Source of the DNA: Imbricaverruca yamaguchii
Lineage: Eukaryota > Arthropoda > Thecostraca > Neoverrucidae
Length of the DNA: 64,000 nucleotides
Direction: 5' to 3'
NCBI GenBank assembly: GCA_034440575.1
Contig: JAOTOL010001621.1
Coordinates: forward strand, 1,033,001-1,097,000
In this document: piece after piece, positions 23,120-63,620 of the stretch
Position numbering within the stretch: position 1 is the stretch's first letter
How the letters are laid out: the number at the start of each line of letters is the position of its first letter
Position numbers and translations under genes: made by a program
Notes under the pieces: generated by a model
Seen by the model: only the letters and a program-made list of their open reading frames with translations
Database searches by the model: none
What the model was told of the DNA's origin: nothing

Positions 23120-26100
23120 CTGCAGACGACGTGGGTCATCATCAGAGAGGTGGCTGCCGCTGTATGGGTAGGCTCAGGGAAATGAGGGGACACGATGCCG
23201 ACCGGGAAACGTTAGACTATTGTGCGCTAACGTGCGTCACTGCACCTCCGCGGCACCTACAAACACATTAGTCGGATGGCCAAGCAATCCCAAGGCTGGC
23301 GAAGTCACACCAGAGACCCGCCCACAGGTGGTCAGGTCAACGCCGATTATCAGAGGGACACGACCGAACATAGTTGCGCTTCAACCCCTGCAAGGCTACA
23401 GTAATCCCCACAGATGCAGCGATCATTTATGAATGGAGGGAGAGGGGAGAGCGGGAGCTCATTACACCAGGGCAGTGCTGCGAGGTACAAAATAATTACG
23501 ATGTGACCTGGGAATCTACAGTCAATTAAAAATTATCTTCACCCGTAAAACATGCATATACGTCTATGCATAGTGTAGAAATGTGCATCAATATAAATAT
23601 ACATATGCAGAGAGAAAGAGAGAGCGAGAGCGAGAGAGCGAGAGAGAATGCCAGAGTTTTTAATCACACTGGTAGAACTTCTCACCGAGTCGGCACTGAC
23701 CCAGTCCATGGCCGTTTGTGAACCTGGCGGCGGTAGGTCCAGAGCTGTAGGGGGTCGAGACGAACGCCAGGAGGCGGTGTCGCAGCCGCCGGCTCCGGTA
23801 CACCGTCACACCGACCACCGTCACCAGCACCACCACCAGCAGCACCACCGGCACCACCACGGACACCAGATGGATCTTCTTCACCGCCTCCACAGTGTCA
23901 TCTGCTCCGCGTGGGCCAGTGGGGTCATTGGGGAGCGCGAGGACAGCACGAGCTGGTTCGGGACAGATGGGGGTTGGTTGGTTATTTGGGCTTAGGGGCG
24001 CATCGACTGCTTCGGTCATACAGCGCCCGGGGACAGATGGGGGTAACGGTGGGGATCACGCATGGCCAAAGGCAGATGGCGGTAACGGTGAGGAGCACAA
24101 GATACTCGGGGCAGATCGTGGTGACGGTGGGGATCACGCAAGACTCGAGGTAGGTGATGGCAACGGTGAGGAGCACAAGGGACCCAGGGCAGATCGTGGT
24201 AACGGTGGGGATCACACGAAGCTTAGGGTAGATCGTGTAGCGATGGGGAGCACGGCAACGGGAGACCCAGAGCAGTTGGTGGCAACGACGAGGAGCATGG
24301 GCACGACATGGCCCCGCCTCGTAACACCACTGGCTTGGTGACGTTCCACGAAGCTACAGACACTGCCAGACGATCTATCAAAACCTCCCACCGAACGTGC
24401 AGCCTGGACATCCACAGGCCCTCTCGACACGTACAACATGGGCACCAACGTCCCCTTCGAACACACCTACAACATGGGCACCCACGTCCCCTTCGAACAC
24501 ACCTACAACATGGGCACCCACGCCCCCTTCGAACACACCTACAAAATGGGCACCCACGCCCCCTTCGAACACACCTACAACATGGTCACCCACGTTCCCT
24601 TCGAACACACCTACAACATGGCCACCCAGGGCACCTGCCGCCAGGTGTACTACGTACCAGGAGGCACGTGGAAGCTGGCCGCCGCCGACGACAGCGAGCG
24701 ACGGCCGTCGGATGTCAGCAGCTGCACCGTCGCGAAGTAGGTGGTGTCGGACTGCAGGCTCGGCGGCGCGTACCGATCTTCTGTTACCAGCACACTGCTG
24801 GTGTTCCACACAGCCGACAGGGACTTTGCCAGGTGCACCAGGTACGAGAACCTGAGGTCACGGGTCACACAGCGGTCACGCAGGTGCCTGGACACGGGGA
24901 CCTCTGAGGTTACAGGTCAGTCGGGGCAACACTTGTGCACCAGGTACGAGAACCTGAGGTCACGGGTCACACAGCGGTCACACGGGTGCCTGGACACGGG
25001 GACCTCTGAGGTTACAGGTCAGTCGGGGCAACACTTGTGCACCAGGTACGAGAACCTGAGGTCACGGGTCACACAGCGGTCACGCAGGTGCCTGGACACG
25101 GGGACCTCTGAGGTCACAGGTCAGTCGGGGCAACACTTGTGCACCAGGTACGAGAACCTGAGGTCACGGGTCACACAGCGGTCACACGGGTGCCTGGACA
25201 CGGGGACCTCTGAGGTTACAGGTCAGTCGGGGCAACACTTGTGCACCAGGTACGAGAACCTGAGGTCACGGGTCACACAGCGGTCACGCAGGTGCCTGGA
25301 CACGGGGACCTCTGAGGTTACAGGTCAGTCGGGGCAACACTTGTGCACCAGGTACGAGAACCTGAGGTCACGGGTCACACAGCGGTCACACGGGTGCCTG
25401 GACACGGGGACCTCTGAGGTTACAGGTCAGTCGGGGCAACACTTGTGCACCAGGTACGAGAACCTGAGGTCACGGGTCACACAGCGGTCACGCAGGTGCC
25501 TGGACACGGGGACCTCTGAGGTCACAGGTCAGTCGGGGCAACACTTGTGCACCAGGTACGAGAACCTGAGGTCACGGGTCACACAGCGGTCACACGGGTG
25601 CCTGGACACGGGGACCTCTGAGGTTACAGGTCAGTCGGGGCAACACTTGTGCACTGGGTGCGAGAACCAGTCGCCACGGGCTATACAGCGGTAAGGGTTA
25701 GCACGCTGACACTTAGGCCATTCACAAAATATATAACCAATAGTTTACTGATGAATTGAGGGGATATCGTCTTAAAACAGAACCTTGATCAATAATTCCA
25801 CAAAGAATAGCCAAATGCTTTGGTTCCTGCTCGCTCTCTGGTAAACCACAAAATTGCATCCTCATCCCTGCTCCATCTTTCAACCATGTCATATGCAACT
25901 AACGCCCTTTTCAAAGTTCAGAAATCAGGGACCAAATGTGATGCAAGCATGGGTGTAGGAATCGAAGGCCCAAGTATGGGTGTAGGAATCAAAAGACCAG
26001 GTATGGGTGTAGGAATCAAAAGGCATGGGCATGAGCGTAGGCCAGGTATGGGTGCAAGAATAAAAAGACCAGGCGTGGGTATAAAAATCAGAAGACCAGG

Positions 26101-29100
26101 CATCAGTGCAGGGATCCAAAGGCCAGGCATGGAAGCTTCAATGCCACTATCCTTAAATTTTAATGTGGGGCCAATGTCCCAATGTTAACAACAGGAACTA
26201 AATGGAAAGAAAGGCATCCTCACACCCTTTTCCCATGCCAGTAAATCCCTTGTTTCCACACACATGGTAGTAAGGTAGATAGATCGTCAAGTGTTTATGG
26301 GTGCCACATGTTCATCTTCACACCCCAAAACTACTGTTGTTGCCAAATCAAATTTTGAGTTCACTCTTTGCATACATCAACATAGCCTTAATGAGAAGCT
26401 TCGAATCATTGATGCTGCATTGGCAACACCAAAAATGCAGAAGGCTCTGCTCCTGCACGTGTTGTACACACCAGTATGTCTGCACTGAGTGCCCACAGTA
26501 TGGACCACCGGTCCACCCTACACACAGATCCTCATCCCACACCACATAGATACACACCACACAGACCCCAGTCCACACCACACACAGATCCTCAGCCAAC
26601 ACCACATAGATACACACCACACAGACCCCGGTCCACACCACACACAGATCCTCAGCCAACACCACATAGATACACACCACACAGACCCCGGTCCACACCA
26701 CACACAGATCCTCAGCCCACACCACATAGATACACACCACACAGACCCCGGTCCACACCACACACAGATCCTCATCCCACACCACATAGATACACACCAC
26801 ACACAGATCCTCAGCCAACACCACATAGATACACACCACACAGACCCCAGTCCACACCACACACAGATCCTCAGCCAACACCACATAGATACACACCACA
26901 CAGACCCCGGTCCACACCACACACAGATCCTCAGCCCACACCACATAGATACACACCACACAGACCCCAGTCCACACCACACACAGATCCTCAGCCAACA
27001 CCACATAGATACACACCACACAGACCCCGGTCCACACCACACACAGATCCTCAGCCAACACCACATAGATACACACCACACAGACCCCGGTCCACACCAC
27101 ACACAGATCCTCAGCCAACACCACACACACGACCTGGGCCCACACCACATAGATCCTCAGGCCACACCACATAGTTCCTCGGCCCACACCACCCACACAA
27201 TCTCGGCCCACACTACTGACCATTGGTCCACACCACAGATCCTCGGCCCACACTACTGACCATTGGTCCACACCACAGTTCCTCGGTCCACGTTACTGAC
27301 CATTGGTCTACACCACCCACAGATCCTCGGTCCACACTACTGACCATTGGTCTACACCACCCACAGATCTTCGGCCCACACTACTGACCATTGGTCCACA
27401 CCACACAGATCCTCGGCCCACACTACTGATCATTGGTCTACACCACCCACAGATCCTCGGTCCACACTACTGACCATTGGTCCACACCACAGATCCTCGG
27501 TCCACACTACTGATCATTGGTCCACACCACACAGACCCTCGGCCAACACCACACATGCCCTAGGTTCACACCACAACAGCACCTGACCACGCGTAGCCAA
27601 CTGCCGTCGAACTGGCGGCTGGCTTACTTGACGTCGTGCATCTCGGCCGGCAGCCGTCGGTGTTTCCAGTAGAGCTGCACGCCGCCGTCCGGGTGGACGA
27701 TCGGTCGCAACTGGTACGGCGCCGGTATGGGCGTGGCGTCGAACGCGACGGTGGGCGCCGCCCGCGACTGTAGCGCCGACGTGGTCACCGTCACCTGGTA
27801 GTGGCCGCCGTAGGCGGCCGGCGCCAACAGTTCCAGCCGGGCAGACGTGGTCGGATCTCTGCTGAGACGTTGTGGTGGGACGGGTGCGGGCACGTCCACC
27901 TCCTGCACAGTCACCTGGTCACAGACACACACCGGTTGGCAGCAGTGCGACTTTGCCGCCGCTCAGCTGAGCGACGTCATGCGCGTGGCTGAGTGGGGGA
28001 GTGACCTTGAGCCGGTAGGACACCTGGGAGATGGCGGTTCGAGTTCACGCGTCTGCCGGTTTATTTATTGGCAGAGGTACTACATCACGACCACGACGAA
28101 TATTTCCTTGGCGACAAATCTCCAATTCAGTACAGCGGTGAACTGTTGGTAATGTAAGGTGCAGATCTTGAAGAAAAAAACACAGAGCTGGGACGTACAC
28201 AGAACAAATACGTACCCACACTTCCAGTAAATCAGCCTTTTCGTACACCGGACAGCGATATTACCACTGTTGCCAGTTCACCTCCTGTCCATGTCCTTCG
28301 CGCGGGACAGTCACAGATACACCGCTGGAGTCGATGGACACAATGTAAGTGACATATCCGCCGCAGAGGCACTCACAGTATAACCGACCGGTCTCTCTAA
28401 GAGGGTACAGCTGGCCAACCAGGTGATGTTCATCTGCAGCCGCTGGCCTCGCAAGGCCGTCACCGTCACGTTCTTGGGCGGCGCGCGCAGGTCGAACCGA
28501 GTGCGCACGCGCTGCGGTGGTGCGCCGGCACCAGTTCCGGTCGGTCCGACCACGGCCACCATGATGAGGTAGTCCTCACAGGCGGCGAGCCCAGTTATCT
28601 GCACACAGAGGCACCTGGGCTCAGTGTTGTCACTACACAGGCGGCGAGCCCAGTCACCTGTACACAGAGGCACCTGGGCTCAGTGTTGTCACTACACAGG
28701 CGGCGAGCCCAGTCACCTGCACACAGAGGCACATGGGCTCAGCTACACAGGGCACCTAACAAGCACTGGCTCTCGTACTACCGCGAGCCCAGGCACCTGT
28801 ACACAGAGGCACATGGGCTCAGTCGTCACTACACAGGCGGCGAGCCCAGGCACCTGCACACAGAGGCACATGGGCTCAGTGTCGTCACTACAGGGCAGCC
28901 AGCACTGTAAGAGGCACATCGTAAACACGCCAGGCACCTGTACAAGAGGCACATGGCTCAGGTCGTCACTAACAGGCGGCGAGCCCAGCACCTGACACAG
29001 AGGCACGGGCTCACGTCACTACAAGCGAGCCGCACTGACAAGGCACTGCTCAGGTCGTCACTACACAGGCGGCGAGCCCAGGCACCTGTACGAGGCACAT

Positions 29101-32100
29101 GGGCTCAGTCGTCACTACACAGGCGGCGAGCCCAGGCACCTGACACAGAGGCACATGGGCTCAGGTCGTCACTACACAGGCGGCGAGCCCAGGCACCTGT
29201 ACACAGAGGCACATGGGCTCAGTGTCGTCACTACACAGGCGGCGAGCCGTCATCTGCACACAGAGGCACCTGGGCTCAGTGTCGTCACTACACAGGCGGC
29301 GAGCCCAGGCACCTGTACACAGAGGCACATGGGCTCAGGTCGTCACTACACAGGCGGCGAGCCCAGGCACCTGTACACAGAGGCACATGGGCTCAGGTCG
29401 TCACTACACAGGCGGCGAGCCCAGTCACCTGCACACAGAGGCACCTGGGCTCAGTGTCGTCACTACACAGGCGGCGAGCCCAGCACCTGTACACAGAGGC
29501 ACATGGGCTGTCACGGCGAGCCCAACTTCAAGGACTGGTCAGGTCACTACACAGGCGGCGAGCCCAGGCACCTGTACACAGAGGCACATGGGCTCAGTCG
29601 TCACTACACAGGCGGCGAGCCCAGTCACCTGTACACAGGCACATGGGCTCGTTTTCACAACGCGGCAGCCACACCTTACACGAGGCACTGGGCTCGTCGT
29701 CACTACACAGGCGGCGAGCCGTCATCTGCACACAGAGGCACCTGGGCTCAGTGTCGTCACTACACAGGCGGCGAGCCCAGGCACCTGTACACAGAGGCAC
29801 ATGGGCTCAGGTCGTCACTACACAGGCGGCGAGCCCAGGCACCTGTACACAGAGGCACCTGGGCTCAGGTCGTCACTACACAGGCGGCGAGCCCAGTCAC
29901 CTGTACACAGAGGCACATGGGCTCAGTGTTGTCACTACACAGGCGGCGAGCCCAGTCACCTGTACACAGAGGCACATGGGCTCAGGTCGTCACTACACAG
30001 GCGGCGAGCCCAGTCATCTGTACACAGAGGCACATGGGCTCAGGTCGTCACTACACAGGCGGCGAGCCCAGTCACCTGTGCACAGAGGCACCTGGGCTCA
30101 GGTCGTCACTACACAGGCGGCGAGCCCAGTCATCTGTACACAGAGGCACATGGGCTCAGTGTTGTCACTACACAGGCGGCGAGCCCAGTTATCTGCACAC
30201 AGAGGCACCTGGGCTCAGGTCGTCACTACACAGGCGGCGAGCCCAGTCACCTGTACACAGAGGCACCTGGGCTTAGGTCGTCACTACACAGGCGGCGAGC
30301 CCAGTTATCTGCACACAGAGGCACCTGGGCTCAGTGTCGTCACTACACAGGCGGCGAGCCCAGTTATCTGCACACAGAGGCACCTGGGCTCAGGTCGTCA
30401 CTACACAGGCGGCGAGCCCAGTCACCTGTACACAGAGGCACCTGGGCTCAGTGTTGTCACTACACAGGCGGCGAGCCCAGTCACCTGTACACAGAGGCAC
30501 ATGGGCTCAGGTCGTCACTACACAGGCGGCGAGCCCAGGCACCTGTCCATTAGGATGTCATTGAAGTACTTCTCCTTGAAAAAATACCGATGCCACATTA
30601 TGGTGCCTGTGTCATAGAAAACACCATTTATATCCACAAACACTGCACTTGAACGAGCTTTCAATTAGCATGATCCGGCTGGTTTTCCTTATACCATGGT
30701 CAGGAAGACACCTGCACGCCTCTGGTGACTATTTACGGAACTGAGTACACCACAAGACGAGTGTCTTAACCATTTTTGTGACGGTAAGGACCAGCCCAAT
30801 CAGCCCATGCACAAACACTGTACTTTACCATTTCGTTCCGGACTCACAGACCCCATATTTCACCAGGATTTCCACGGATAATATGCGATACTTTACTAGA
30901 CATCCAAACAGGATGTCTTGTACATCTGGAAACGATCGCGCTAATTAATTACAGGACCCTTACCAGTAAAACCCGTAAAACAGTTATCTGCATGTAGGTT
31001 TTCATCAGTGGTAGAAAGCAGTAAAAACAAGTTTCGTGGTAAAAACTGCTAAATCTGGTTTAGAAAGCACTTCCCTGCTTCTTCAAAGCACGGCAATTTC
31101 ATGTGAGCTTGCTTGTGCATCTGTAACGTGGGTGCACGTGCCTGTTTCATACGTCGACTGTTTTTTGAAAAAAAAAAAGTGAAAAATTCACAACTCTTCT
31201 TCAAAAAAAAACTGATCCCACACCACCACTGGCAGGGCAGCAATGACTTCCGCAGGTCAGTTACAGTGCCGCACGCCGTCCCGACCGAGCGTCGAGACTC
31301 ACCTCAGCGCGAGCTGTGTTGACACGCTGCCGTACGCCGGCCGAGTAGAGCTCTTCGACGGACGTGCCCCAGAACACGCCGTACTGCCAGCTGGTGGCGA
31401 CGCCGCCGTCGGCCGACGGCGGCGGCTGCCACTCCACATGGACGAGTGTGCCGCTGTGTGGCGACAGTGCCGCCGTCACGTTCCGGACCGCCGCGATCGG
31501 CGTGCCGTCCGTGACCACCTCGGTCACCAGTTCGGTGCCCAAGAACCGACCATGGAAGCCCTGCACTCGGACGACGTACTTGGTGCCCGGGGAGAGATCG
31601 TGCACTGCCGGCAGAGGTCGCACGTCACACTTTACGCTGAACACATGTTAGCACGCCACCGGGCGACATTCAGGTCACAACAGCCAACTAGATCGTAGGT
31701 GATGCTCGGGTCATAGTCGGACCACACGCGGCATATCAGTGGCATGTGCCGCGACCTTTCCTCGATGATCAGAAAATACAGTGAAAAGTTACCGTGATCT
31801 TGGTGTTTATTCGTGTACAACCTTCCCAGAACCACGCAACAAAATAAGCAATTCCATACATAGGCCAATTATCACTACAATACTTATCATTTCTGATATC
31901 ATGTCTTGTTAAGCACAGGCTTTCCAATACCCTCGCGTACTAGCAGTGGGAGCAAATGTGTATACGTGCTGGTCTTGTACTTAGGACGATTAAGGCGTCA
32001 TCGGAATCGGAATTATATGCTTAGCAAGACCTGGCATGACATAGATGATAAATTATGGCAGTGAGAAGTCGCCCTATAGGTGGAACTGTTTATTTTGTGT

Positions 32101-33582
32101 AGTTCAAGGAAGGGTTGTACACTAATATAGACTAAGAGTAGCATAACTTTTGACTGTATTTTCAAATCACCGAGGAAAAGTCTTGGCGTGATATAGATGA
32201 AACCTAGAAACAGTTCGCTTCTGTATTATTTTAGCTAGACAGTGCTTTAGCGAGGTACGTATTAAGTATACAAATATATCTTTTGACAATTTCATCGTAC
32301 GCAGAGTGGATATTTTTGAGTTTTCGTACCAAAAAATGATCAAGATAATACTTTTTATAGAACTAGGAACACTTTAAAGGCAGCAGTAGTAAGCGTTTAC
32401 GGACTGCCGCGACACGACACGTCTGGCACCACCTTGTCCCCGCCGTCACCTCGCGACGTGACGTTACGACGGCCGCCTCCCGGCCAGACGGCGAATCATC
32501 TCTCGGCGGCGTGACGGCCGCACCACTCACGGACAAGCCGGTTGTCTTCAGTGCGCCGCGAGCCGGCCGGCACGAGCCTGTTGTCGGCGGGAGCGTAGCT
32601 GACGACGAAGCCGGCGGCGGCCGCCATCGGCTGCCAGCTCACGGTGATGCTGTCCTCCGTGGCGAGCGCGCGGAATCCGACCACCGACCCGATCACGGCG
32701 GCGCCGTCGAACGTCACCAGCGTCGGGTGCGACATCTCGCTCAGGTACACAGCGTTCTCGGCCTGGACCTGCCGTCGGCAACATCGCGGTGACATCCAGG
32801 CGCCTCACAACATCCACAGTTCACAATGCCCACCGTTCAGTTCAACCAGCAGTCAGTAATGACCACTGACAGTTCAATAGACCCAGTGCAGTTTGTAATG
32901 ACCACGAGTCAGAGGCTTCCATTCCACAGGCACCACTATTTAAAAAACTCCACTTTACACAACTAGTGGTGTCTGCATCTTCAACAATTCACGAATTAAC
33001 AGATAAGACGCACACGATGAGCGGCTCGGTGTGGTGGAATATTGGGGTGAGAAAGCTACACCGCAGGTGCCGACATCTGCACGCCAGGCGGCGGCGGCGA
33101 CAAGGTGCCCGAGCCAGACCCAGGGGTATTTCGGCTGCCCGACTCGCACCGAGCTGGGACGTACATCGTCTGTGTCTATCACCATCCTCTAACTACCTCC
33201 AACCTCAGACTGCCATCAACCTCAGACTGCCACCATCCTCAGACTACCAGCATCCTCAGACTGTCACTATCGTCAGACTCAGGAAGGTGGCTGTGAGTTA
33301 GCACCTAATACAACGTTTTGTCTCATTTCTAACTAGACGGGCTTCGCACTCTTTAATGCAGATACACGACACATGCCCTCACATCATAGAATCGCAGTAG
33401 TATCGCATTCCGGATACTAACAGGAAACGTATAACGAACCAAACTGATCAGCTTAACTTTGAATAAACATTGGCCGGATCATTTCTACGAAGACATGGTA
33501 TTAAGAAGTCTGTGATGCCAACCTCTTACACATTAAACAATTTGTTCAGACGACACACCGAAATATACTACATTGTGAATAT

Positions 33583-33655
<73 letters not shown>

Positions 33656-36600
33656 CGTGTAGTAAGCATACGATAAAATGCCCACGATAATCCAAAACTC
33701 GCCACCTTATTTTTCACATCCCTGCAAGCTCCTTAGTACATCTTGTGCCCAGCATAATAAAAAAAACGCCAGTAACTGCCCACCTGGAACTTGTAGACGA
33801 CGCCCGGTCTGAAGTCCTCGACCACGGTGAAGTTAGTGTGGCGTGTGAGGAACAGCTGTGGCCGCTCCGGCGGTGACATGGACAGTCGGTAGTTGAGCAG
33901 GCGGCCGTTCATGTGCTTCGGCGGCCACCACGACACGTACACCGAGTTGTGGTTCAGCTGGGTGGCGTTCACCTGCCACGGCGGTGTCGGCTCTGCGAGC
34001 GGACACGGGCGGCTGCAGGTCAGCCGGGACGGCAGCAGTCGACACGGTGGCATAGCAGGTCAGGTCACACGCCCCGTCAACAGACCCAATAGGCTGGCGG
34101 AGAGGACATCATAGTCGAGTGCGATTGGGCTATACGGTCATGGTGAGGTAAGTATGGGGCCAGTGCGGCGGTTGAGATCATGTGGAGTTAAGAAAATGGT
34201 AGTGGCGAGATAACGTGGAGCAACAGAGAGCGAATGTAAGCAGGGCCGGCGTGTGTCATTGCAAAGTCCAAGTAGGTGGTGGGGCTGAAGACCCCGGACG
34301 TCATAAGCGAGTCAATGGGGCGGTGGTCACGAGGGCGAGTCAACAGGAGCCGTGGGGGTCAGCACGCCCGTACTTTCGGTGTGTGATGTTCAGCCAACTT
34401 GGAAGGCACACGCCTACCCATAACAGACCGAAACAAAGCGAGCTGCGGATCCACCCATCCTGTGCAGGCCAGAGATCAGCGAGCTCGGACAGCGTGAGAA
34501 TTGCCGGTACCCCGTCCCCCATTCTTCTCGAGTCGATGCGGACATTCAACTCTGCCTGACCACACTCAGTTCTGCTGAAATGTGATGACGAGGGTGCGCC
34601 GCTGACGACCCTCGAGACCACGGTCTGTATCAGTTGTCACCAGGCCACTCTAGGCGCGGCTGAGGTGACTCCGGTCACGTGTCCACCCGTCCACACAGTC
34701 CGGTACGCACGTGCGCCGAGGGTGCGCTGGGTGAAGTACTGGCTGGCCGGGTACACCTCCTGGCGACCATCGATCCGCACAAACACGGTGATGTTGTACC
34801 ACGTGTACGGCTCGAGCTGCCTGAACGTGTAGCCGGCGTCCGACACCCAGGTGGTGTTGATCCAGTGGCAGGAGCCGGGCTGGTACACGGCGCACAGCGA
34901 CGGCAGGTACCTGCGGCGAGCGACGCGTCACGGCTCCGTCCACTGGGCGGATCGACAGGAAACAAACACCCCCATGCAGCCAAGACTATGCCAAGGTTCA
35001 ATAGTACAAACAAATTTGTTGCACGTGGTACGTGAAAATTGTATTTAAAAAACGGGATTTTAATCGCTTTTCGCGATTGCGTTTGGTGATGGAAAACGTT
35101 TGGAGGCGGTGCAACGCCGTCATTTCCACTAACTTGAGACTCTATGCACCGACTACACATTTCCAATTGGTCATCGGCACCTGTTATGTAACGGTAGTGA
35201 CCTAGTGTGACATGATGAGGTACATGTTGCGATTCGTAAAACCGGCTATATTCCCACTTTATTGCGTCCGTATCACAGACGATTTTATGGTGGGAAGTCA
35301 AAAGTCCAGATGATCCGGGTTATTTTGTCGCTTACTGTATCTTTATATTTTATCTGCAACAAATGATTTGATTGCAACTGACAATCCTGTGCAGCTCCAA
35401 AGGACTTATTTGTAAGACATTATGACGTTCAAAGAAAGTCGACATGCATAGCCCAAATAAGAAACGCTTCAGATTATGTCATTATGTTATCTATGTCAAC
35501 CCATCGTTGATATAAAGGCAATGCTCCAAGCAAGATTCTACATATACATGCATTACATCCGCGGCGAAATATCGATTGATTTATTGATTATTTGGGTTTA
35601 AGGGCGCGCCGACTACTAGGTCATTTAGCGCCCATCGGCGAAACATCCATGCTAAAACTGCTCAGAGGCGAATTATGATGCATTATTTTATGACATTTTT
35701 ATTCCTTTCCAGTGTACTGTACATTTTACATTTCTGGAACACAAATATGCCCAGAGATATCTACATTTTTTCCCAAAATATATTTACACACGAGCATGTT
35801 CATTTTCCTCACATGCTATAGTTACGACGCTTTCCATGAGGATGGCATGCATGTCTAATTTTTTTTTTTTTTTTGGGGGGGGGCGAGGTTGGGCGAAGCC
35901 AAACTACACTTTCTAGGTTATTCTTACGTGTACATAAGTGATTTAATTTATTCATGTCTAGGCTATATTTTCCAACTTCTAAACAAAACGATAGAAAGCC
36001 TAACTGATGTATACTCGGATGAATCTCCAGAAAGTTCAGAATTATTTTTTCTTCAATAATTGAGAATATTGAGTGGTTTGAATATTGAATATTGAGTGGT
36101 GGGAAACATCCGTGCAGAAAAAGACGAGCAGTACTTTGAGAAAAGCTAAATTTCGATAAAGAACTTCTTGATGTACACATTACTTGTGTTGCGATTGTGT
36201 CCGATGAAGGTACTTACGTATATGTCAAGTGGAAGTTGAAAGTTCGCTTAGTGTCTCCCATGTGCTATTGGGATTCGTTCAATGTTCAGTGAACTGTTTT
36301 TGTAGTAAAGCTACTATATTTTTCGCATGCAATACATTTATCGTGTCATATGGTGTTTATATTTCCCATACAAGGGTTATTCAATTCTGGCTGAACAATT
36401 GCGCTTCCTTCCTTCATAATTATACACCGTGGAAATTATCCACAGGGAGTAGACGATTAACCGTAATGGATTTTCTATGAAGAATCTCTCGATACGAGAA
36501 CTGGTTGGTTGGTTGGTTGGTTGGTTGGTTGGTTGGTTGGTTGGTTGGTTGGTTGGTTGGTAATTGGAGTTTATTGGCGTATCGGATATGATGCTCGATG

Positions 36601-39600: not shown

Positions 39601-42600
39601 ATACACCGGCCTGTCGGCAGTACACACACACAGAGGTGAGGGGTCACGCTGGCCGTCACACAGCCACGCCCGCCAGATACACCGGCCTGTCGGCGGGACA
39701 CACACAGAGGTGAGGAGTCACGCTGGCCGTTACTGCAAGAGGTATTGCGGGAGTGGCCAGCGGTACATCGGTCATGGAAGTCAGAGCGGGCAGCGAAGGG
39801 CCAGGCAGATGACTCACCACTGTTGCAGCGAAACTGGTCCGTGGAGCACGTCTGGGCGGGCGACGGCGGTGGCGCGGGCGTGGACGAACCCGGATGTGGG
39901 GTGGACTTGTCGGCGCAGCCCTCCTCGTCGCTGTTGTCGCCGCAGTCGTCGGAGCCGTCGCACTTCCACCAGAGGGGAATACAGCGCGTGTTGGCGCAGG
40001 CCATCAGCTGACCGGTGCGGCCACACGTGCCCTGATGACGTCACACAACACCCGGGTCACCAGTGCACACTGCAAAGTTTACACCAACCCAGGGCTAGAT
40101 CAGCTCCAGTCAGATCAGAGCCAAAACAGGCCACACCGACCGGGGCCACGACGATCCAGTTGCGGATATGGCCTCCTCTAAATAATTTTTACTAGGTTGG
40201 ATGTTTTGCCCATACCTAATCAACAAAATATGGCGTCACCGGCGGATCTAGCCCACCTGTTTGGGGCGAGACCAACTTTAGGCGCGAAAAAAAACCCGCT
40301 AAATCTTATCCCCCAGTGGCGTACATTTGGTTTGCGCCATGGGAGGGGCAAAAGGATGTGGAGGGTGCCCAGCCTACCACTAGCCCTTTTAATTATTATT
40401 ACAAGAGCCCTTACAATCATCTGAACAAAAATAATCAGTAACCAACCTAATGTCCTGCCAACTTGCTACAATTTCCTCCTCCTGATAAAAAGGCACTGTT
40501 GCGAAAAAAAACCACTTCTGCTTCAGGAACGAAGGTAGCAACTAAGTAAACGAAGGTATAGTTTACTTGGTTCGGATAGAGGAAGCTCTTGGTTGAGATA
40601 GAGGAGGCCTTTGGTTGAAATAGAGGAGGCCCAACCATGATAGAGGAGGCCCTGGTTGCGGGTCTGGCCGACGCTGGCCAGACCCGCAACCAAGCCACGA
40701 TAGCATCAACACCGACCCAGGCGACGAGTCACTCAACTCCTGGACAGTTCAGATGGGCGATGGGGTAACCCCAGCCACCCATGATCGACAGTGAATGCCG
40801 GTCACAAACTGACCCATCCGATGTCGGCTCCACTCGCGCATTCGCGCATCTCAGCGTTCGTCCGAGGGACCTGGGAAACTGAGCGAACCAATACCCAAGA
40901 GGAGGGAAACGACTGAGCAGGGGAACGGGAACGGACCGGGAACGTCGTATGGGCGATACCAGGCAAGGTCGACAGGGTTCCTGTCTCGCCACGGGAGACC
41001 GCCGTGCCAAGGAGAAGGCGGCTGCAGCTCTACCGCCGTGGACGACGGTCGTCCATGGCGGTACTGCAGATGTGCCGTGGAGGGGGACCCCGTACCGAAT
41101 GACAGCCCCAACCCAGGCGAAGCACCAACGCACCGTGGGAAACGTGGGGCTGGGCGGCGTTGGCGGGGCGGCGGTGGTGGCGTTCTGACATTCCGCTTCG
41201 TCTGAGCCGTCGGTGCAGTCATCATCTCCGTCGCACACCCACTTGCGGTGGATGCACCTGCGGGCGGCGTGACACGACGCTGGTGTCACTTGTGTCGCAC
41301 TAGAGGTGCGTCAGTTGCCGCACATCTACTCAGTGTGCTAGCGCTTCCGCCCACACTGATCATCAGACAAACACGACAGCCGGCGAGGAAGACCCGATAT
41401 AACCAGAGCTCAGCACTGGGGAGCATTCTATGGTAACCCCGCATTCTCTTCCATCAATACTGGTTGTGTAATGTCCATAATTGCTTGTCAGTCGTATAGC
41501 ACGCCCTATCGACGATATTGAACATTTAGCTTCGCTTCTACAACGGCTTTCCTCACTTCACATTTGTTTTCCGAAGTGGAAAACGGATACATACTGATTA
41601 ATTACATCATCTATGACACACCGATATCATACGCGATGATTGACACGACGATAACGATCCAATTGTGGTGTTTTTGCGAACATATTTTCACGAAGTTATA
41701 CTACAGGTTGAAAGGATTAGATCAAATGGAAGTTGATTGGTTATTTGGGCTTTCGGGCGCTTCGACTGCTGTGGCCATATAGCGCCTGATCTAATGGAAG
41801 TGTCGCAAGTTGAAATGCAAATCTTTAACTTTAATCCCATTGTTTGGCCTATGAATACCCATTCACATTTGCCCATGGGTACCGTAATCGGTCGGCAGAC
41901 GTAAAACACCCGAGCCATATGGTGGGCGATGCCACCGACATGAAACCCTATAGCCGGAATTTATGTGAAATATGTGGGTCCTGTTCGGACCTATCTGTCC
42001 ATCTGTGTTCTATTCGGACCCAGGTGGGTAAGTGCACATTGTGCAGACCAATGTGGGCAGGCAGATTCTGTTCGGACAGGGTTAAGTCAATCGAATGCAC
42101 GCACCTTTTATTTGCACACTGGAACTCGCTGGTCAGACAGGTGTGGTTCTGGCATCTGACAGGGTCCTCGTCGTCGCCGTCGGGGCACTCTGGTGTTCCG
42201 TCACACACCCACGACATCGGAACACACTTGTTACTGTTGGCGCACGAGAACGACAGAGCTGAAACACAACATGTCAGTCAGCGCCGCTCGAGGTGACGCT
42301 CAGTTCGGTGCCCACTGGCAGGCATTTTCACCTGGGGCGAGTGTCATTTATCTATTGTCATATTTGCGTATCGATTAGGTCGGAGGGGCGCGAGCGCATG
42401 CACTACTATTTCGGCACAACTTGAAAAAATGAAACAAGCACGAGCTCAATGTATCCAGGCTGAACTGCAGTGAAGCTAGAAATAGGAACATGATTTCTAT
42501 ATAATCTGTGGGTGTTCATTCAATTGCACCCGCACAATTACGGCCACAGCTCAATGTCAATTCGAAAAAGAAAAAAACAAATATATCGGTACCGATCACA

Positions 42601-45600
42601 GATGTGCTGGCCCGCACCACTACAGTTCTCTCGCTAGAAGGTGAAATGGTGTCAAACAATGAAAGGGAACTAATTGTGCTTTGATAAAGAAACTCAAACT
42701 TCTGGGTTCTCGAACCTGATAACTCACACGCCAATAATAGTACTCTGTGTAGGAATTGGAGAAAATTATGACAACAAAGTATGTTCTTGCATATACTTTC
42801 TCCAACTGATTGCTCCGAGCCCAACTATTTATACAACAAAACCTAAAATTAGGGAGCTCGAGCTTCGAAAGCACAAAAACGAGTGTCTGATTTCAAAACA
42901 AAAGGGTCATACTCTCCAAACTTGTGCTGCGAAAATTAGCTTCTCCAAACCCAGCACTCCAAAATATAAATCCAACCCTGTTCATCACTGCTAACATCAC
43001 GATTGGCGTCAGTGTCCACATCACGACCGACATCACTTTCCGCATCACAACTGACGTCACAGCCAACATCACAGATGACACCACTGGTCCACCGATGTTC
43101 ATATCACAAATGATCCATCACTGCCCACACCACAATAGACCTGTCTGCCACCAAACGGGCGTGGTTAAAGGGCGGGACCGACTGCAAAACAGCTGCCGAC
43201 AGGTACCATCAGAGGGTCGGACCGACCTGTACAACAGCTGCCGACAGGTACCGTCAGAGGGCCGGACCGACCGTACAACAGCTGCCGACAGGTACCGTCA
43301 GAGGGTCGGACCGACTGTACAACAGCTGCCGACAGGTACCGTCAGAGGGTCGGACCGACCGTACAACAGCTGCCGACAGGTGCCATCAGAGGGTCGGACC
43401 GACCGTACAACAGCTGCCGACAGGTACCGTCAGAGGGTCGGACCGACTGTACAACAGCTGCCGACAGGTACCGTCAGAGGGTCGGACCGACCGTACAACA
43501 GCTGCCGACAGGTGCCATCAGAGGGTCGGACCGACCGTACAACAGCTGCCGACAGGTACCGTCAGAGGGTCGGACCGACTGTACAACAGCTGCCGACAGG
43601 TACCATCAGAGGGTCGGACCGACCGTACAACAGCTGCCGACAGGTACCGTCAGAGGCCGGACCGACTGTCAACAGCTGTGACAGGTACCGTCAGAGGGTC
43701 GGACCGACCGTACAACAGCTGCCGACAGGTACCGTCAGAGGGTCGGACCGACTGCCCAGCATGTGCACGGCGAGTCACCAGGCACAGGCCGGACCGGGCC
43801 GGGACTGTGTTCACACGCGTCACAGCAGGCACGGCCGAGGGCCAACTCACGTCGGCACGGCAGCGGCGTCGACGCAGTGCACGCCTGCTCGTCAGAGTTG
43901 TCTCTGCAGTCGTCCTCTCCGTCGCAGCGGTACTGCGAGCGGATGCAGCGCCCATTGGCGCACCGGAACTCGCCATCCGTGCAGTTGGGATACACTGGCG
44001 GCACGGCACGACACGTCACGTCATTCCACGTCCAGCTCATACCACACACCGCTCACGGCATTCTGGTACGACGGTGGGGCGTATGGAGAACTACGGCACA
44101 CATCATCATGGCATGTCGAGGGTAATGGCAGTGACACCGTCTAAAATTTACTGATGCACTTCTATCAAACACTTTTACATGGCTGTTCAGCTGAAATATA
44201 ACCCATCCTAGGCGATAATAGCCGCATGCGTACATTAAATGCGGAAATTATGGGCATAAGCCCACAAGAAAAGCAAACGACATGTACCCCAAATGGCGCA
44301 TGCATTAACGTGCGGACGAAACGGACGCAGCGTACGTGGGGAGAGCGGCGCCATGCTCGTGTTTGCAACCGTAGCCATCAATCACACGACATTACAGGAA
44401 ACATTGGACTCAAGAGCCGTTGTGTCGCCGCCTGCGTCATGAGCACTTCCTGGCCAGTCCTGGACACCGTGCATCAAGAACGCAACGGTCGGCGATCGGT
44501 TGCCAACCAACGGATGTTTCGGCCCAGCGGACGTCACGAGACTACATCCCGGCCTGGCGCTGGCCGAACCACAACTGTGCGTGCGTGTGCGTCCGACCGG
44601 GGCGGGGCAGGGCCTTACCGCAGTCGCGCTCGTCGCTGCCGTCACTGCAGTCGTTCTCGTAGTCGCATCGCCACGATCCGGTCACACAGCGTCCGTTATC
44701 GCAACGGAACTGCAGCTGCTGGCACGTGGTCTGCAACGGCACGGCGGTCAGACGAGCCGCCATTTGGCGGTGGCCGGACGTCGAGTCAGACCGGACCATA
44801 CGCTGGCACGGCGGTCAGACGAGCCGCCATTTGGCGGTGGCCGGACGTCGAGTCAGACCGGACCATACGCTGGCACGGCGGTCAGACGAGCCGCCATTTG
44901 GCGGTGGCCGGACGTCGAGCCAGACCGGACCATACGCTGGCACGGCGGTCAGACGAGCCGCCATTTGGCGGTGGCCGGACGTCGAGCCAGACCGGACCAT
45001 ACGCTGGCACAGCGATGGCCGCGGCCAGTGCAGCGATGCTAGCACATGTGCAAGCCATATCAGGTCGCTTACCAAGGTTAGGTCAAATGAAATCACTTCC
45101 CAACAATCTAGTTGAACACCTCTATGAATGTTCAATAAATTTGCTTTCCAGCAAAGCCAACTGGAGTGATGCACGTTAGGATGAAATCGCTTCTGCACAA
45201 CTAACTTATCATGATAATCGGAAAAGAGAACCGTAAACGTCTTGATTGATTGATTATTTGGGCTTAAGGGCGCATCAACTGCTACTGGTTATGTAACGCC
45301 CATCGTAAACGTCCTACGCAAGTTTAAAATCAGATGCAAAACTTTTCCGAACTGTTTTTTTTTTGTCTTGTTTGAAGAATAGCTGCATTCAAATGGACAT
45401 TTATACTAAAATAACTGTTGAAGGTTCTGTTTTCGATCATTGAGTCTTACATGGCTTACTATGTAATATTAATGTATATTCCACCTTCTTTGTCATAGCG
45501 CCAAGGTAGTTACATGTGTGGGTACCATTTATTTGCATATCTCGGACTTTTGAATAGGTCCAGGTCATTATCCAACTCGACAACGGTGCTATATTAACTC

Positions 45601-48600
45601 CTTTGAGGTATTTTCTTGTTCCCTGATCTAATGAAAATGTGTTTTGTATTTTAAATATTAATTACCAACATTTGCAATGGAAAACTGAACGCAATGACTA
45701 TATTTTTAATGAATTCAACTTGGACCTGACCCGTGAGGTGAGGTCACCTGCCTAAAAATGGCCATTTCGGTAAGATTCCTAATTATTGGTGTGCTATCAG
45801 TTGATGCCAAAAACCAACGAGACATAAGCTGCTCCTTCGTGTTCGTGCATGCATACTGCTAAAACAAGAGATCGCCTAGCTTTACTGGTGCTGACATCAT
45901 CGGTGAGCACACAGACCAAGTGTTTTCAAGAAATACAGTATGCACTGCTTGACGTTGTTAATTTCAGTTTGCGCACAGGAAGTGCGCCTTGGCAGTGTCA
46001 ACACGCAGTGATTACATCATTCCTGAAAATTGAATGTCCCGAATGATCCATCGAAATTCCAATTCATTTCGGTTGTACCCAGAGTATCAACAATTGTACA
46101 GTGGGTTGTGCCATCGACCCACTCTACAATTGAAGTAATCGCTGCAAAACATCATACATTTTGTAACGGCTGGCATGGTTACGGACAAACACATCAACCG
46201 AAACTGACCTTTCTAGGTAATCAGAGCCAATTTCACTAAAATCACAAGCTGTGTATTCACACAGAATTTCGTATGAATATGTTGTTATTCCTAAAGATAG
46301 CATTTCACTAACATCATGAGCTAACAAAAGCACACAATCAAAAGAATATCATTTGTTAAGCACAAACTACAGAAAAATGTGTGTTATTAATTGATTTATG
46401 TTGCATGAAGGTTATTAATTGTCACCAGCCGTGGTCAATACACCACTTTTGATAGCACATGTTCTAGGTGGTGTGCACTTTGATGGATGGTAGTGTAAGC
46501 CATGGCAAAATTGATGAATGCGTGTGCTGATGAATTTTGGTATGGGGTACATATGTGCTTGTGATATTTACTAAATGAATTTTAGCATTTTATGAATTTT
46601 AGCCTGTTTCCACATCGGTATTCATCTTGAACTGTCAGTGTCAATGTCAACATTTGAACGGTGTGGCGGTTGCGATGGAGTGCAGGTTCGTTTGTTTACA
46701 TTCCGAGCCCAGCTGATTTTCTTATCAAGGGTTAATGGAAATGGATGGCACGTTGTTCCAAAATAAATATGATGCTTTACATCATTTGGTCTCATGTGTT
46801 TTAATTATTCATGGTGTTATCAATTTGACAGTATTTTACGACTTAAATGCCGTTGGAAAAACATCATGTTATTGTGGAATATGTAGGTTGTTTTATCAAT
46901 GAAAAGCATAGTAAAACCCCATCGTTTGTAACGCAATCACAGAATCTTGTCTGAATTGCACTAGTTGTGGCTACTAACAAAAATCTTTGTGAAACGTAAT
47001 TTAGCACAGTTTGTGATTTATATCACAGTGGCTGTTCACAAGCTGTGCTAGTACAAAAACAATAGTGTAATTGGCCTCTGACCGAATAGTCAGTATCAGC
47101 AATGGATTTTTAATGGCACAGATAACAGAACGCTTTTTTTAAAAAACTGCACAGTGCAATGTTGACAATGTTTTTTGCTGATTACCTAAATGGACACTAG
47201 TCAAGCTAGAATATAAAAATTCGGTGGGTAACGCTGCACTTTCAGTCAATTCCGAACACTGCAGGAGTGAATCAATGGGCGAAGCTCGAACCAATTATGC
47301 TGCATATCCTTTCCAATGACCTTTTGCAAACGGTGCAATGATTTTTGCAACATGCCAATTACACGTAAATTTTGGTCGAGGAAAAAACCCAGAACATTCA
47401 TCAGCTCATTAAATCGACGGAGTGTTTGGTCCGATATTTTCGGCTGTTTTAGCTCCATGGACACCTACTTTTCAAAACCTAGTTGATAGCATGTGGTTCG
47501 AGGTCATTTTTGCATAATCTTCCCACATTGCAGATCCAATTTCGAAACTCAATTATCAGTAAAAGAAAAAGCATTACAAATTGGGAATTGTAATAGACAG
47601 TTACTTTTCTTTCGAGGACCATGCTAGCCAATTGGTGACAAGAGCACAAGTGTGCTTATTGCACGAACTCATTTCAGACACCTTGTGAACGCGCTGGTAG
47701 GTGGTGGCATTTGGTACGGTACGTCTACATATGGCACCTGTGGGAATATGCAGTAGCACCGCATACGAAAGCCGCACAACCTCTGTGGATGTGAACCTCT
47801 GTGGATGTGAATTAGTGGGATAAAATCGATTACACCTCGGAAGCATTGCAGGTGTTAAAATAGTAGCCACCAATTAAATGGTTGTTTATCATTAGTTTGC
47901 TCCCATAAAAATAGTTAGATATCCATAGCAGCCACGAGATATGGCGGAAGCATTCGTTTGAGTTACGGACACAATATGACGCACCTGGTGGCAGTAGTAC
48001 CCAATATGACGCACCTGGGTAATATGAGCACGGTGGTACCCAATATGACGCACCTGGTGGCAGTAGTCCCAATATGACGCACCTGGTGGCAGCAGTACAC
48101 CTGGTGGGCAGACCCAATATGACGCACCTGGTGGCAGTAGTACCCAATATGACGCACCTGGTGGCAGCAGTACCCAATATGACGCACCTGGTGGCAGCAG
48201 TACCCAATATGACGCACCTGGTGGCAGCAGTACCCAATATGACGCACCTGGTGGCAGCAGTACCCAATATGACGCACCTGGTGGCAGTAGTACCCAATAT
48301 GACGCACCTGGTGGGAGCAGTACCCAATATGACGCACCTGGTGGCAGTAGTACCCAATATGACGCACCTGGTGGCAGCAGTACCCAATATGACGCACCTG
48401 GTGGCAGTAGTACCCAATATGACGCACCTGGTGGCGGTAGTACCCAATATGACGCACCTGGTGGGAGCAGTACCCAATATGACGCACCTGGTGGCAGTAG
48501 TACCCAATATGACGCACCTGGTGGCAGTAGTACCCAATATGACGCACCTGGTGGCAGCAGTACCCAATATGACGCACCTGGTGGCAGCAGTACCCAATAT

Positions 48601-51600
48601 CGGCCAATATGACGCACCTGGTGGAGCAGTGACCCAATATGACGCACCTGGTGGCAGTAGTACCCAATATGACGCACCTGGTGGCAGCAGTACCCAATAT
48701 GACGCACCTGGTGGCAGCAGTACCCAATATGACGCACCTGGTGGCAGTAGTACCCAATATGACGCACCTGGTGGCAGTAGTACCCAATATGACGCACCTG
48801 GTGGCAGCAGTACCCAATATGACGTACCTGGTGGCAGTAGTACTCAATATGACGCACCTGGTGGCGGTAGTACCCAATATGACGCACCTGGTGGCGGTAG
48901 TACCCAATATGACGCACCTGGTGGGAGCAGTACCCAATATGACGCACCTGGTGGCAGTAGTACCCAATATGACGCACCTGGTGGCAGTAGTACCCAATAT
49001 GACGCACCTGGTGGCGGTAGTACCCAATATGACGCACCTGGTGGCGGTAGTACCCAATATGACGCACCTGGTGGCAGTAGTACCCAATATGACGCACCTG
49101 GTGGCAGCAGTACCCAATATGACGCACCTGGTGGCAGCAGTACCCAATATGACGCACCTGGTGGCAGTAGTACCCAATATGACGCACCTGGCGGCAGCAG
49201 TACCCAATATGACGCACCTGGTGGCAGTAGTACCCAATATGACACAATATGACGCACCTGGTGGCAGTAGTACCCAATATGACGCACCTGGTGGCGTAGC
49301 AGTACCCAATATGACGCACCTGGTGGCAGCAGTACCCAATATGACGCACCTGGTGGCAGTAGTACCCAATATGACGCACCTGGTGGCAGTAGTACCCAAT
49401 ATGACGCACCTGGTGGCAGTAGTACCCAATATGACGCACCTGGTGGCGGTAGTACCCAATATGACGCACCTGGTGGCAGCCTTGCTCATCAGAGTTGTCC
49501 CCACAGTCGTTGTCGCCGTCGCACAGCCAGTCACGATTGATGCAGATTTGCCGGTTTTGGCACGGGAAGTAGTCCGACGGGCAGGTGTGGTTCACTGCAG
49601 CAATTCGGGTCAGGTGAGGACAGGTCATGTCAAGCCATGTCCGGCCACGTCACGTCACGTTTCGTTTCCGTCATATTGCGCTACGTCAGGTCAGATCAGA
49701 TCTGATCACAAACGGAACGTCAACCTCTCACCACTAATGTGTCTTCGGACTGCTGGAGTCGGAAGGCACAAAACTAAGGAACAATATAAAGATGGAAATG
49801 AGGGTGGATGTTTCTTAAATATCATACTGCTTACAAACACAGCAATTATCACGCAGTTATTATGGCAGCAAAAGCAATGCATCAGCATACGGCACAATTA
49901 AGATGATAAGATGAGCGACTGTATGTGGCTGGCTATATTATTCCAAGATTGCGGGATCGGAGACTGCTGCGGACAGAACACCTACCGCAACAAGGCCCTC
50001 TCATTAGTCCGTGGGGACATACGGACACCGACGTTGTGTCAAATTACAGCTGGGAGCACAGGCATAGCAGAAATAAGCGTAACGAATTTCGAAGCAATGC
50101 GCTGCGATTTGAGACGCGTGCCCCATGTCCAGCAGAGCCGCGCAGCTTCTGAAACGATTCATCTCACTTCGACAGAAGCGCCTCCAAAACTAAGCGTCTT
50201 CAGCGGAAGTTAGCAACACACCTGCCGAAAATTAGCTCATCGGACGTATTTTCCACATCACGATTGCGTGCATTAACCGAGGCACCAGCTCGGCTGAGCT
50301 GCCGCGACACACTGCGGGGTGCGTCACGAGCCTTTCTGTCTTGCAGCTCCTTGGCGAACTTTACGCCACAAGCCGTTCCGGGCGGCGTCTCCCAGTACAC
50401 CGTCAGTGGGATGTTGGGCTGGTCAGCCACGGGATCCGAGGAGCACGAGGCATGGCGCAACTGCACAACTGATGGCCCACCGACCGGACCCTAGCCGGCG
50501 CAGACTGGCCGGACATCAACTAAGTTCCGGCATGAAACTTTTCTGTGAACCAAAAATGTGCGTGGTTCAAAGAAGACTGCGATGAAGTGAAAGTGGAATG
50601 AACTTAAAGCTGGGATAATTCTGAGCAAATGAATTAGCACTGAAGACACTGCACTGAAAAAAGTTCATATCGTTTCGAACGCCAGATGCTCGGAAGGAGA
50701 CTGGCCACCCAGATGAGCTTTTGTCGCATACACAAGAGTACAGACTTGCTCACTCGCAATGCTCATTCGGCGTGCATAGCTTTTCGGCACAGAAAACAAG
50801 CTACAGATCATGTTATGCTACCTATTGTACCCACATACCGTCATGTGCATGGGCCTCAGCTACGACATGCCAGCAGAATAGGTTCCAGCTGGAACTACTA
50901 CTATTAAAACCTCATAGGCAGGGCGGTCCAACATTGTCATAAACTCAACAATACCAAGAAACCATGCAATAAATGTTTTAGAAAAGTGGCAGCACTGCGT
51001 TGTAATAACATGAATTCTGGGAACGTTAACATCAGTTGCGATCATTTCGTTGAAAAAATAGCTTCGGGATTTGGACCCTAAAATAATGCCGCTATTGATC
51101 CATTCACGAATTTGTAATTGTTTGCTCCGAAATAAAGAAAACGGATCACGAATCTATCAAAGTCGCAGCACTGCCTTATACAATCATGAATGTGGCGACC
51201 AATAAGCTCAGTTGCGGTCATTTTCTTGAAAATTTGGTCCGATTTGAACCCCAAAACAATGTCGTCACTGATCAATACACGAATGTATAATTGCTTTCCG
51301 CAATATCAAGAAAACGGGCCACGAATCCCAAAAAGTTGCAGCACTGCGTTACGTCATGAATTCGGCGAACGTTAAGCTTAGTTGCGAGCATCTTCGACAT
51401 GCGAGCATCCATCAACGAGTTTGCAATTGTTCGCTGCGATATCAAGCAAACGGGTCATGAATCTCAAAAAGTTGCAGCACCGCCTTATGATATGAATTCG
51501 GCGAACATGTGCCACAAGTTTCAGCTGCACCTAGCTGCTCTAACACCGATAGTGATCAATTGTATCCCGACAGGCCGCGGTGCGGTCCGGTGGCCAGCTC

Positions 51601-63496: not shown

Positions 63497-63620
63497 CCTG
63501 GTGCGGACACCGGTAAATATTTATGTTGCTTGGTGCCGACACCAGCGAATATTTATGTTGTTTGGTGCGGACACCGGTGAATAATTCTGCTGCTTGGTGC
63601 GGACGCCGGTGAATATTTCA
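63497..63620 (+). repeat. Tandem repeat, ~38-bp unit, ~3.5 copies
   Basis: GGTGCGGACACCGGTGAATA followed by TTTATGTTGCTT, with variants. Confidence 0.85.

Follow-up and report, generated by a model that had tools for sequence, protein, structure and literature searches.

Four minisatellite arrays (A to D) lie in one gene of the window, the whole stretch of 64,000 nucleotides under study, and arrays of this kind make it testable whether the birth of minisatellites is linked to exon edges or to GC alone. The host gene is a SORL1 orthologue, and the genome is barnacle-like and rich in short tandem repeats. For the gene model, exons were placed by tblastn and GT/AG phase fitting, using the SORL1 protein of Amphibalanus amphitrite (52% identity) as template. 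This gave 33 exons in total, open and colinear with orthologues, with the first exon or exons missing from the model. The template fit did not settle the exon at array C, which was set from frame and splice-site scores (PWM scores of 10.2 for acceptor 38132, 8.4 for donor 37929, and 10.1 for the upstream donor 39818). When the joined exons were used in a PDB search, LRP, LDL-receptor, and similar chains were listed, and SORL1 was not among them.

Table. Arrays and exons of the SORL1-like gene. Hugging arrays end near an exon edge.
Feature	Position	Strand	Details
Array A	24833..25668	(-)	TRF; 102-bp unit, 8.2 copies; 19 exonic bases and acceptor; 7 intact decoy acceptors
Array B	28577..30546	(-)	TRF; ~58-bp basic unit; 22 exonic bases; 25-26 intact decoy acceptors
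Array C	38089..39730	(-)	TRF; 74-bp unit, 22.2 copies; 44 exonic bases; 21 intact decoy acceptors
Array D	48098..49479	(-)	TRF; 30-bp unit, ~45 copies; 10 exonic bases; 44 intact decoy donors
Hugging array, 67-bp unit	44738..45077	(-)	stops 8 bp short of acceptor 44730; no straddle
Hugging array, 36-bp unit	24427..24628	(-)	TRF; end 30 bp from donor 24658
Hugging array, 35-bp unit	37092..37206	(-)	TRF; end 48 bp from donor 37254
Hugging array, compound 60/44-bp	26503..27575	(-)	TRF; end 53 bp from donor 27628
SORL1-like gene, part within window	23061..64000	(-)	reaches at least 93596 in window-extended coordinates
FN3 exon, acceptor edge in array A	24658..24851	(-)	tblastn/GT-AG model; first exon base 24851, last 24658
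FN3 exon, acceptor edge in array B	28377..28598	(-)	tblastn/GT-AG model; acceptor 28598
LDLa exon, acceptor edge in array C	37929..38132	(-)	frame and splice-site scores
LDLa exon, donor edge in array D	49470..49594	(-)	tblastn/GT-AG model; donor 49470

In each of the arrays A to D, the repeat unit crosses a splice junction of the SORL1-like gene, as the initial annotation had proposed and as TRF and the modelled junctions confirm. The exonic bases, equal in number to those first reported, are repeated inside the array at an identity of 19/19 (A), 22/22 (B), 44/44 (C), and 10/10 (D), against shuffle controls whose best of 200 (at up to 700 positions) reached 13, 16, 26, and 9, respectively. 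More copies of array D were found as far as about 47969. The arrays had been described as extending on the intron side only; this is true, but a gene that has kept its coding capacity could show such an array in no other way. The count of 21 decoy splice sites in array C was reproduced, whereas the claimed numbers for A, B, and D (about 8, 30, and about 49) came down to the intact sites given in the table.

The same architecture was found beyond these four arrays. In the 5' half of the SORL1 gene, which the initial annotation had not seen, 3 of 10 arrays straddle a junction (0.59 expected, P = 0.017). A dynein heavy chain gene has 7 straddling arrays out of 18 (2.36 expected, P = 0.0045); two of its 40 junction fits are low-scoring, and one of these supplies the donor of a straddling array. 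In a third, LDLa-rich gene, 6 of 44 junctions are straddled, its 22 exons having been set by pattern and best-scoring AG/GT, with junctions read by eye without a template check and two donors equal in score to their own decoy. Altogether, a straddling array is present at 20 of 189 junctions, which come from three genes, each on its own contig; the basic unit of a few compound arrays is a choice. We regard 16 of the 20 as firm, as their exonic bases are matched within the array better than by the best shuffle; the other four, which are short or diverged (74428, 93588, one dynein donor, and one LDLa acceptor), do not surpass that score. Tandem arrays are difficult to assemble, and reads could have been collapsed or duplicated at exon edges, but such an artefact is scarcely credible for an architecture shared by three genes on three contigs, with copies that bear their own mutations and straddling arrays that span 137-1970 bp. 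The idea of a mobile element that brings splice sites with it is disfavoured: when units A to D were sought in 347 kb, they were absent outside their own arrays except for one 24-bp match for A. They are mutually unrelated and look local.

Redundant splice sites or an in-frame exon extension could be useful to the cell, and the arrays might then have been selected for. AG or GT is indeed kept in 135 of 138 decoy copies from 14 SORL1 and dynein arrays, where the copy match includes the dinucleotide, and in 129 of 131 decoys of eight of these arrays when copies were found without it. Open frames run through array D (in the gene frame) and through one dynein array. Array A, however, has a stop in the gene frame, and the unit length is divisible by 3 in only 7 of 20 cases (6 with the alternative unit), on which ground frame-driven selection was rejected. 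Set against other adjacent base pairs of letters within their unit, the dinucleotides showed no consistent extra conservation, with 5/48 to 43/45 pairs as intact or more, and selection to keep or lose decoys was rejected because they are not consistently better conserved than the rest. We consider it very improbable that the arrays were selected for. In 8 of 8 arrays examined, the decoys agree more closely with the real exon in their exonic part than their intronic part agrees with its copy; this was not used as proof because decoy-decoy diversity is mixed. Copies farther from the one at the exon were not consistently more diverged (correlations of -0.30 to 0.89 in seven arrays), and in array 74428-75048 the exon copy clearly departs from the array consensus.

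We then compared the placement of arrays with that expected at random. Straddling is commoner than under uniform placement, as the initial annotation implied: 4 of 15 gene arrays straddle in the window (0.67 expected, P = 0.003) and 14 of 43 in SORL1 and dynein together (3.6 expected, P = 2.7e-6), and the third gene adds cases. These P values were dropped as a verdict because GC is a confounder. Arrays make up 17% of the 104-kb SORL1 stretch, 17% of the dynein stretch, and 32% of the third, a base rate that was not available to the initial annotation. Array ends are enriched at exon edges and array bases are not, the latter being scarcer beside junctions (10% of the first 20 bp versus 33-37% at 300-1000 bp). 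The edges of arrays in SORL1 and dynein are most frequent at exon edges and become sparser over 100-150 bp. Such a profile could arise if exon edges were the oldest DNA in introns turned over by transposons and had had the longest time to collect arrays, but straddling arrays are no more diverged than others (mean TRF match of 88.6% for straddling, 86.7% for near, and 84.2% for deep arrays), making a role of sequence age improbable.

The GC content is 65% in exons, 61% in SORL1 arrays, and 48% in non-array intron, and outside arrays it falls from 64% at 0-20 bp from an exon to 44-47% past 150 bp. In arrays lying over 150 bp away from any exon, the units contain 59% GC against a background of 47% (n = 17), and in a larger set of deep arrays the values are 59.5 and 48.3 (n = 104). 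Richness in G and C could by itself explain a large part of the surplus at exon edges. For SORL1 and dynein, the deep rate without any GC weighting predicts 1.5 straddling arrays; unit-GC weighting raises this to 6.8 (bootstrap 95% 3.0-11.7), an estimate calibrated on 17 deep arrays only. The 14 observed exceed it with P = 0.04, or about 0.14 with the 11 firm cases. Weighting by flank GC predicts just 4.3 straddling arrays, whereas calibration on the denser third region predicts 10.8-12.9. The unit-GC correction would be too generous if arrays gain GC after their birth.

The part of the excess that GC does not account for could reflect a mutational process in the junction zone, linked to transcription or splicing (R-loops, pausing, nucleosome edges), that raises tandem duplication further. 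The 14 straddling arrays against 6.8 or 4.3 point this way, as do the arrays whose nearest edge lies 50-150 bp from exons, about twice the prediction (10 versus 4.5, the observed being binned by nearest edge and the predicted by seed centre). Against this, the excess after GC correction is weak and is gone with the denser calibration, and the third gene agrees with the GC expectation (6 observed versus 4.8 predicted, assuming a junction GC of 0.64 and a 56-bp unit). Neither a fixed register nor an overall acceptor or donor bias is seen, the exonic part of straddling arrays ranging from 9 to 49 bp and acceptors and donors standing at 12:8 (P = 0.5; 6:1 in SORL1, 9:7 in the firm set of 16). We hold such a process to be unlikely. 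The initial annotation had suggested a process bound to the junction, for example through spliceosomal or R-loop-related breaks; the lack of a fixed register, the similar overall numbers of acceptors and donors, the surplus of arrays stopping 0-100 bp short of an exon (13, with about 8 predicted by unit-GC weighting), and the share of the excess that GC removes leave it unsupported, and a junction-specific break is not needed to explain the arrays. Somewhat less doubtful, yet still tentative, is the proposal that in this lineage the exon-edge zone, which reaches about 50 bp into the exon and 100-150 bp into the intron, acts as a tandem-duplication hotspot about twofold beyond GC. If so, about one splice junction in ten would carry a straddling array, and such genomes would keep dozens of surplus splice sites on hand at some junctions, from which exons could be extended and introns gained.

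The position of array edges relative to the exon was also considered. The straddling edge lies 9-49 bp into the exon in 20 of 20 cases, with none at 0-8 bp, and a few non-straddling arrays end 4-8 bp before the exon. A break placed precisely on the splice site was rejected, as array edges do not pile up at the junction. The exonic fraction of the unit is non-uniform (KS P = 0.016 with all 20 cases and 0.05 with the 16 firm ones). Among acceptor-type units, 12 of 12 have at least 18 intronic nt (8.7 expected, P = 0.02) and 11 of 12 at least 28 (6.8 expected, P = 0.008), both thresholds having been picked post hoc; setting one ambiguous unit to 154 bp, or keeping just the firm cases, gives P = 0.0085-0.015 at 28 nt and 0.03-0.09 at 18 nt. 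A minimum intronic length would be a requirement if the exon-adjacent acceptor is the one used. No comparable limit was seen in the eight donor-type units. Arrays entirely within modelled exons were not seen, against 9.5 expected at the GC-weighted rate (P = 0.002), although this absence is less sure than its P value since a model built on homology could take an exon-internal array for intron. The asymmetry fits the earlier suggestion that selection tolerates expansion away from the coding side.

Altogether, these results make it probable that the arrays, which are of the junction-straddling type called mirages, stem from GC-biased minisatellite birth that is purged within exons and tolerated across their edges. 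GC-rich minisatellites, mostly with 26-102-bp units, are dense in these genes and would be born often, as local segments of unrelated sequence are duplicated in tandem. Exons and the surrounding 100 bp form GC-rich islands within AT-richer introns, and many births would therefore land on exon edges. Births inside exons would be removed by selection, and those straddling an edge would persist, since they leave the authentic splice site in place: a complete site stays beside the exon, and each added copy is intronic. The array would then expand and mutate as intron, leaving up to dozens of intact decoys that are presumably unused. How the spliceosome chooses the authentic site beside up to 44 copies is a further question that these arrays make testable. 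They also bear on intron gain through tandem duplication, and repeat masking may trim exon ends in such genomes.

Introner elements likewise place many near-identical, splice-site-bearing sequences in introns, and these are dispersed copies of one family. Units A to D differ from them in being mutually unrelated and, as it appears, local. In the main text of three barnacle genome papers, "tandem repeat" and "minisatellite" occur 0 times. Literature searches on minisatellites and splicing yielded, on topic, the amphioxus globin, PGBD5, and human segmental-duplication papers. In the available parts of the report on human segmental-duplication genes (PMC2812944), variable internal tandem repeats of minisatellite scale are described at exon-intron boundaries, as here. 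Those repeats differ between recent paralogues and can make new introns or amino-acid repeats, whereas the present arrays lie in introns of conserved genes and leave the modelled protein unchanged. The potato RdRp case (PMC4974935), as far as the accessible text describes it, is an intron gain by tandem duplication and also involves duplicated splice signals, but with two copies, not up to dozens of intronic copies beside an existing junction. The closest likeness is with the mirages of amphioxus, described for Adh3, the globins BflGb6 and BflGb9, troponin C, and PGBD5 (PMC3087553, PMC3902484). The available portions of these papers report units of 10-160 bp, undisturbed splicing, and length instability, which is also somatic, and call the mechanism of origin unclear. 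Concerted evolution in which the boundary copies take no part is a further mirage trait. As in the barnacle-like genome, a minisatellite unit lies across the exon-intron boundary, 5' and 3' boundaries are both affected, and AG or GT is retained in many copies. Going by the same portions, mirages have so far been a lancelet curiosity of single cases in a cephalochordate, whereas here, in an arthropod, 20 of 189 junctions in three genes (about one in ten) are concerned, with up to 44 intact decoys in one array, and both the base rate and the GC expectation were measured. In architecture the arrays match the amphioxus mirage; the host, the frequency, and the measured base rate are new.

The window is C1388:1033001-1097000 of an assembly that comprises 767 Mb in 1430 contigs. 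It best matches, at 52% identity, the sortilin-related receptor of a barnacle, Amphibalanus amphitrite, and a gene model was built in which the exon of array C and the N-terminal exons were placed partly by splice-site score. The numbers of exonic bases that the initial annotation had ascribed to the units of arrays A to D were exact when compared with the modelled junctions. For A to C, these bases are repeated in their own array far above shuffled controls, and for D the recurrence barely exceeds the shuffle maximum (10 against 9). Decoys, that is, extra splice-site copies within an array, numbered 7 in A, 25-26 in B, 21 in C and 44 in D, with the AG or GT intact in all. In the 347 kb examined, no copy of these units was found outside their own arrays, except one 24-bp match of A in L021, a part of the C1363 stretch. 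Around array D, the SORL1 frame is open for 585 codons and a second frame for 542, and a single stop interrupts the third. With every 30-bp copy, ten residues would be gained, and use of a distal decoy donor would extend an LDLa domain by multiples of ten.

Features of the SORL1-like gene, the window and the other stretches (positions without contig name are those of the window, extended past 64000)
Feature	Position	Strand	Junction and exonic bp	Remarks
SORL1-like gene	23061 to at least 93596	minus		33 exons modelled
Array A	24833-25668		acceptor, 19	102-bp unit
Array B	28577-30546		acceptor, 22	~58-bp unit
Array C	38089-39730		acceptor, 44	74-bp unit
Array D	48098-49479		donor, 10	30-bp unit
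Open frames at array D	47895-49649	minus		
SORL1 straddling array	70797-70937		acceptor, 38	gene part outside the initial annotation
SORL1 straddling array	74428-75048		acceptor, 18	gene part outside the initial annotation
SORL1 straddling array	93588-93849		acceptor, 9	gene part outside the initial annotation
18-bp array	13532-14603			~1.07 kb, CCAGCACGG-like
Open frames sharing APLSPN	23663-24055, 44818-45288, 19845-20159	minus		
LINE-like open frames	19813-21258	minus		read by eye only
Dynein stretch (L029-L034)	C1365:591001-641000			50 kb
Dynein straddling array	25181-25610 (oriented dynein coordinate)		donor, 48	51-bp array
LDLa-rich gene stretch (L014-L028)	C1363:1410001-1560000			
Dynein motor match	C1340:1403647-1404630			inside an open frame of 4734 aa
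Dynein motor match	C1347:1728788-1729807			inside an open frame of 4283 aa

Other repeats were seen in the window. The 18-bp unit, made of two 9-bp units, lies outside the modelled SORL1 exons, and its array has long open frames on both strands. A short stretch, APLSPN, is common to three open frames, which suggests a dispersed repeat, and further open frames resemble part of a LINE-type element (reverse transcriptase/RNase H).

Straddling arrays, whose unit spans an exon/intron junction, were found in two more genes. In a cytoplasmic dynein heavy chain (41 exons modelled; best match in the barnacle Pollicipes pollicipes, 82%), 7 of the 18 arrays in the gene span straddle junctions, three at acceptors and four at donors, with 9-48 exonic bp. 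The best matches of SORL1 and dynein suggest that the DNA comes from a barnacle or a near relative of barnacles, other than A. amphitrite and P. pollicipes. The dynein array listed in the table continues in frame as VSAVDEASIAENLPEQE repeats, so an in-frame extension of the exon could occur. Most other genome matches of the dynein motor domain are short, exon-sized pieces; two lie inside uninterrupted open frames and may be retrocopies, paralogues poor in introns, or contamination. On contig C1363, 6 of 44 junctions of an LDLa-rich gene (22 exons) are straddled, as read by eye, the junctions of SORL1 and dynein being checked against a template. In total, 20 of 189 junctions are straddled. Four of these cases (SORL1 74428 and 93588, one dynein donor and one LDLa acceptor) are not above the shuffle maximum for exonic bases, and therefore 16 were called firm (SORL1 5, dynein 6, LDLa-rich gene 5).

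The initial annotation had proposed that exon edges repeatedly seed tandem amplification. Compared with uniform random placement, with straddling permitted, straddling arrays were in excess in the window (4/15 against 0.67 expected, P = 0.003), in the remaining part of SORL1 (3/10 against 0.59, P = 0.017), in the whole modelled SORL1 gene (7/25 against 1.25, P = 1.4e-4) and in dynein (7 against 2.36, P = 0.0045). For SORL1 and dynein together, 14/43 arrays straddle against 3.6 expected (P = 2.7e-6; P = 4e-4 with the 11 firm cases only). However, a good part of this excess, perhaps all, is taken away by base composition. The 17 arrays lying more than 150 bp from exons in these two genes, which served as the main calibration of birth rate, have a unit GC of 59% against a background of 47% (59.5% against 48.3% with the C1363 arrays added, n = 104), and the mean GC of junction windows is 64%. 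Births weighted by unit GC predict 6.8 straddling arrays in SORL1 and dynein (95% 3.0-11.7), giving P(>=14) = 0.04 and, for the firm cases, P(>=11) of about 0.14 by gamma approximation. A prediction of 4.3 comes from flank-GC weights, and one of 10.8-12.9 from a calibration pooled with the denser C1363 region. In the LDLa-rich gene, 6 were observed against 4.8 (2.6 unweighted). The share of sequence taken up by arrays is 17% in both the SORL1 and the dynein stretch and 32% in that of C1363 (106 arrays), and deep-array births per base are 0.00104 in C1363 against 0.00019 in SORL1 and dynein introns, about 5.5x, so the minisatellite load differs strongly among regions.

The enrichment concerns where arrays start, not the amount of sequence filled. 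In SORL1, arrays take up 10% of bases in the first 20 bp from a junction, 12% at 20-50 bp, 16% at 50-100 bp and 33-37% at 300-1000 bp; thus, a random intron position is likelier to lie in an array than an exon-adjacent one. The excess, such as it is, is spread over a zone of ~100-150 bp: in SORL1 and dynein, counts by nearest array edge, against unit-GC predictions by seed centre, were 14 against 6.5 (straddling), 6 against 5.1 (0-50 bp), 7 against 2.9 (50-100 bp), 3 against 1.6 (100-150 bp) and 3 against 2.9 (150-300 bp). The closest non-straddling arrays lie 8 bp from an exon in SORL1 and dynein and 4-7 bp in the LDLa-rich gene. In the 20 straddling cases, the unit takes in 9-49 bp of exon (median 22), and large values are missing from the exonic share of the unit (KS P = 0.016; 0.05 for the firm 16). 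With thresholds picked after looking, acceptor units hold at least 18 intronic nt in 12/12 cases (P = 0.02) and at least 28 in 11/12 (P = 0.008); alternative unit choices and firm cases only gave P = 0.03-0.09 and 0.0085-0.015, respectively. The eight donors have no comparable lower limit. At acceptors, the shortage of large exonic shares fits a need for a complete 3' splice signal in the unit.

No array lies entirely within the 33 + 41 modelled exons against about 9.5 expected at the GC-weighted rate (P = 0.002), a zero to be read with the possibility that a homology-based model misreads an exon-internal array as intron. The straddling ones would have survived: duplication would leave one entire splice site beside the exon, and no change of the protein would be required. 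The extension of arrays only to the intron side, pointed out by the initial annotation, would follow from this survival and should be seen in any straddling array of a gene that still functions. The AG or GT is intact in 135/138 decoy copies (129/131 where copies were located without the dinucleotide). Conservation of decoy dinucleotides is not consistently above that of the rest of the unit, and unit length has no frame preference (7/20 divisible by 3); these two measures give no clear sign of decoys being retained or purged.

Altogether, the explanation that we favour, and hold to be moderately probable, is that arrays are born with a GC bias, purged in exons and tolerated across exon edges. 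In the literature searched, whose coverage excludes most subscription journals, no report of mirages in arthropods was found. By architecture, the arrays of the three genes are filed with the mirages, the amphioxus minisatellites whose unit lies across an exon-intron boundary (PMC3902484).
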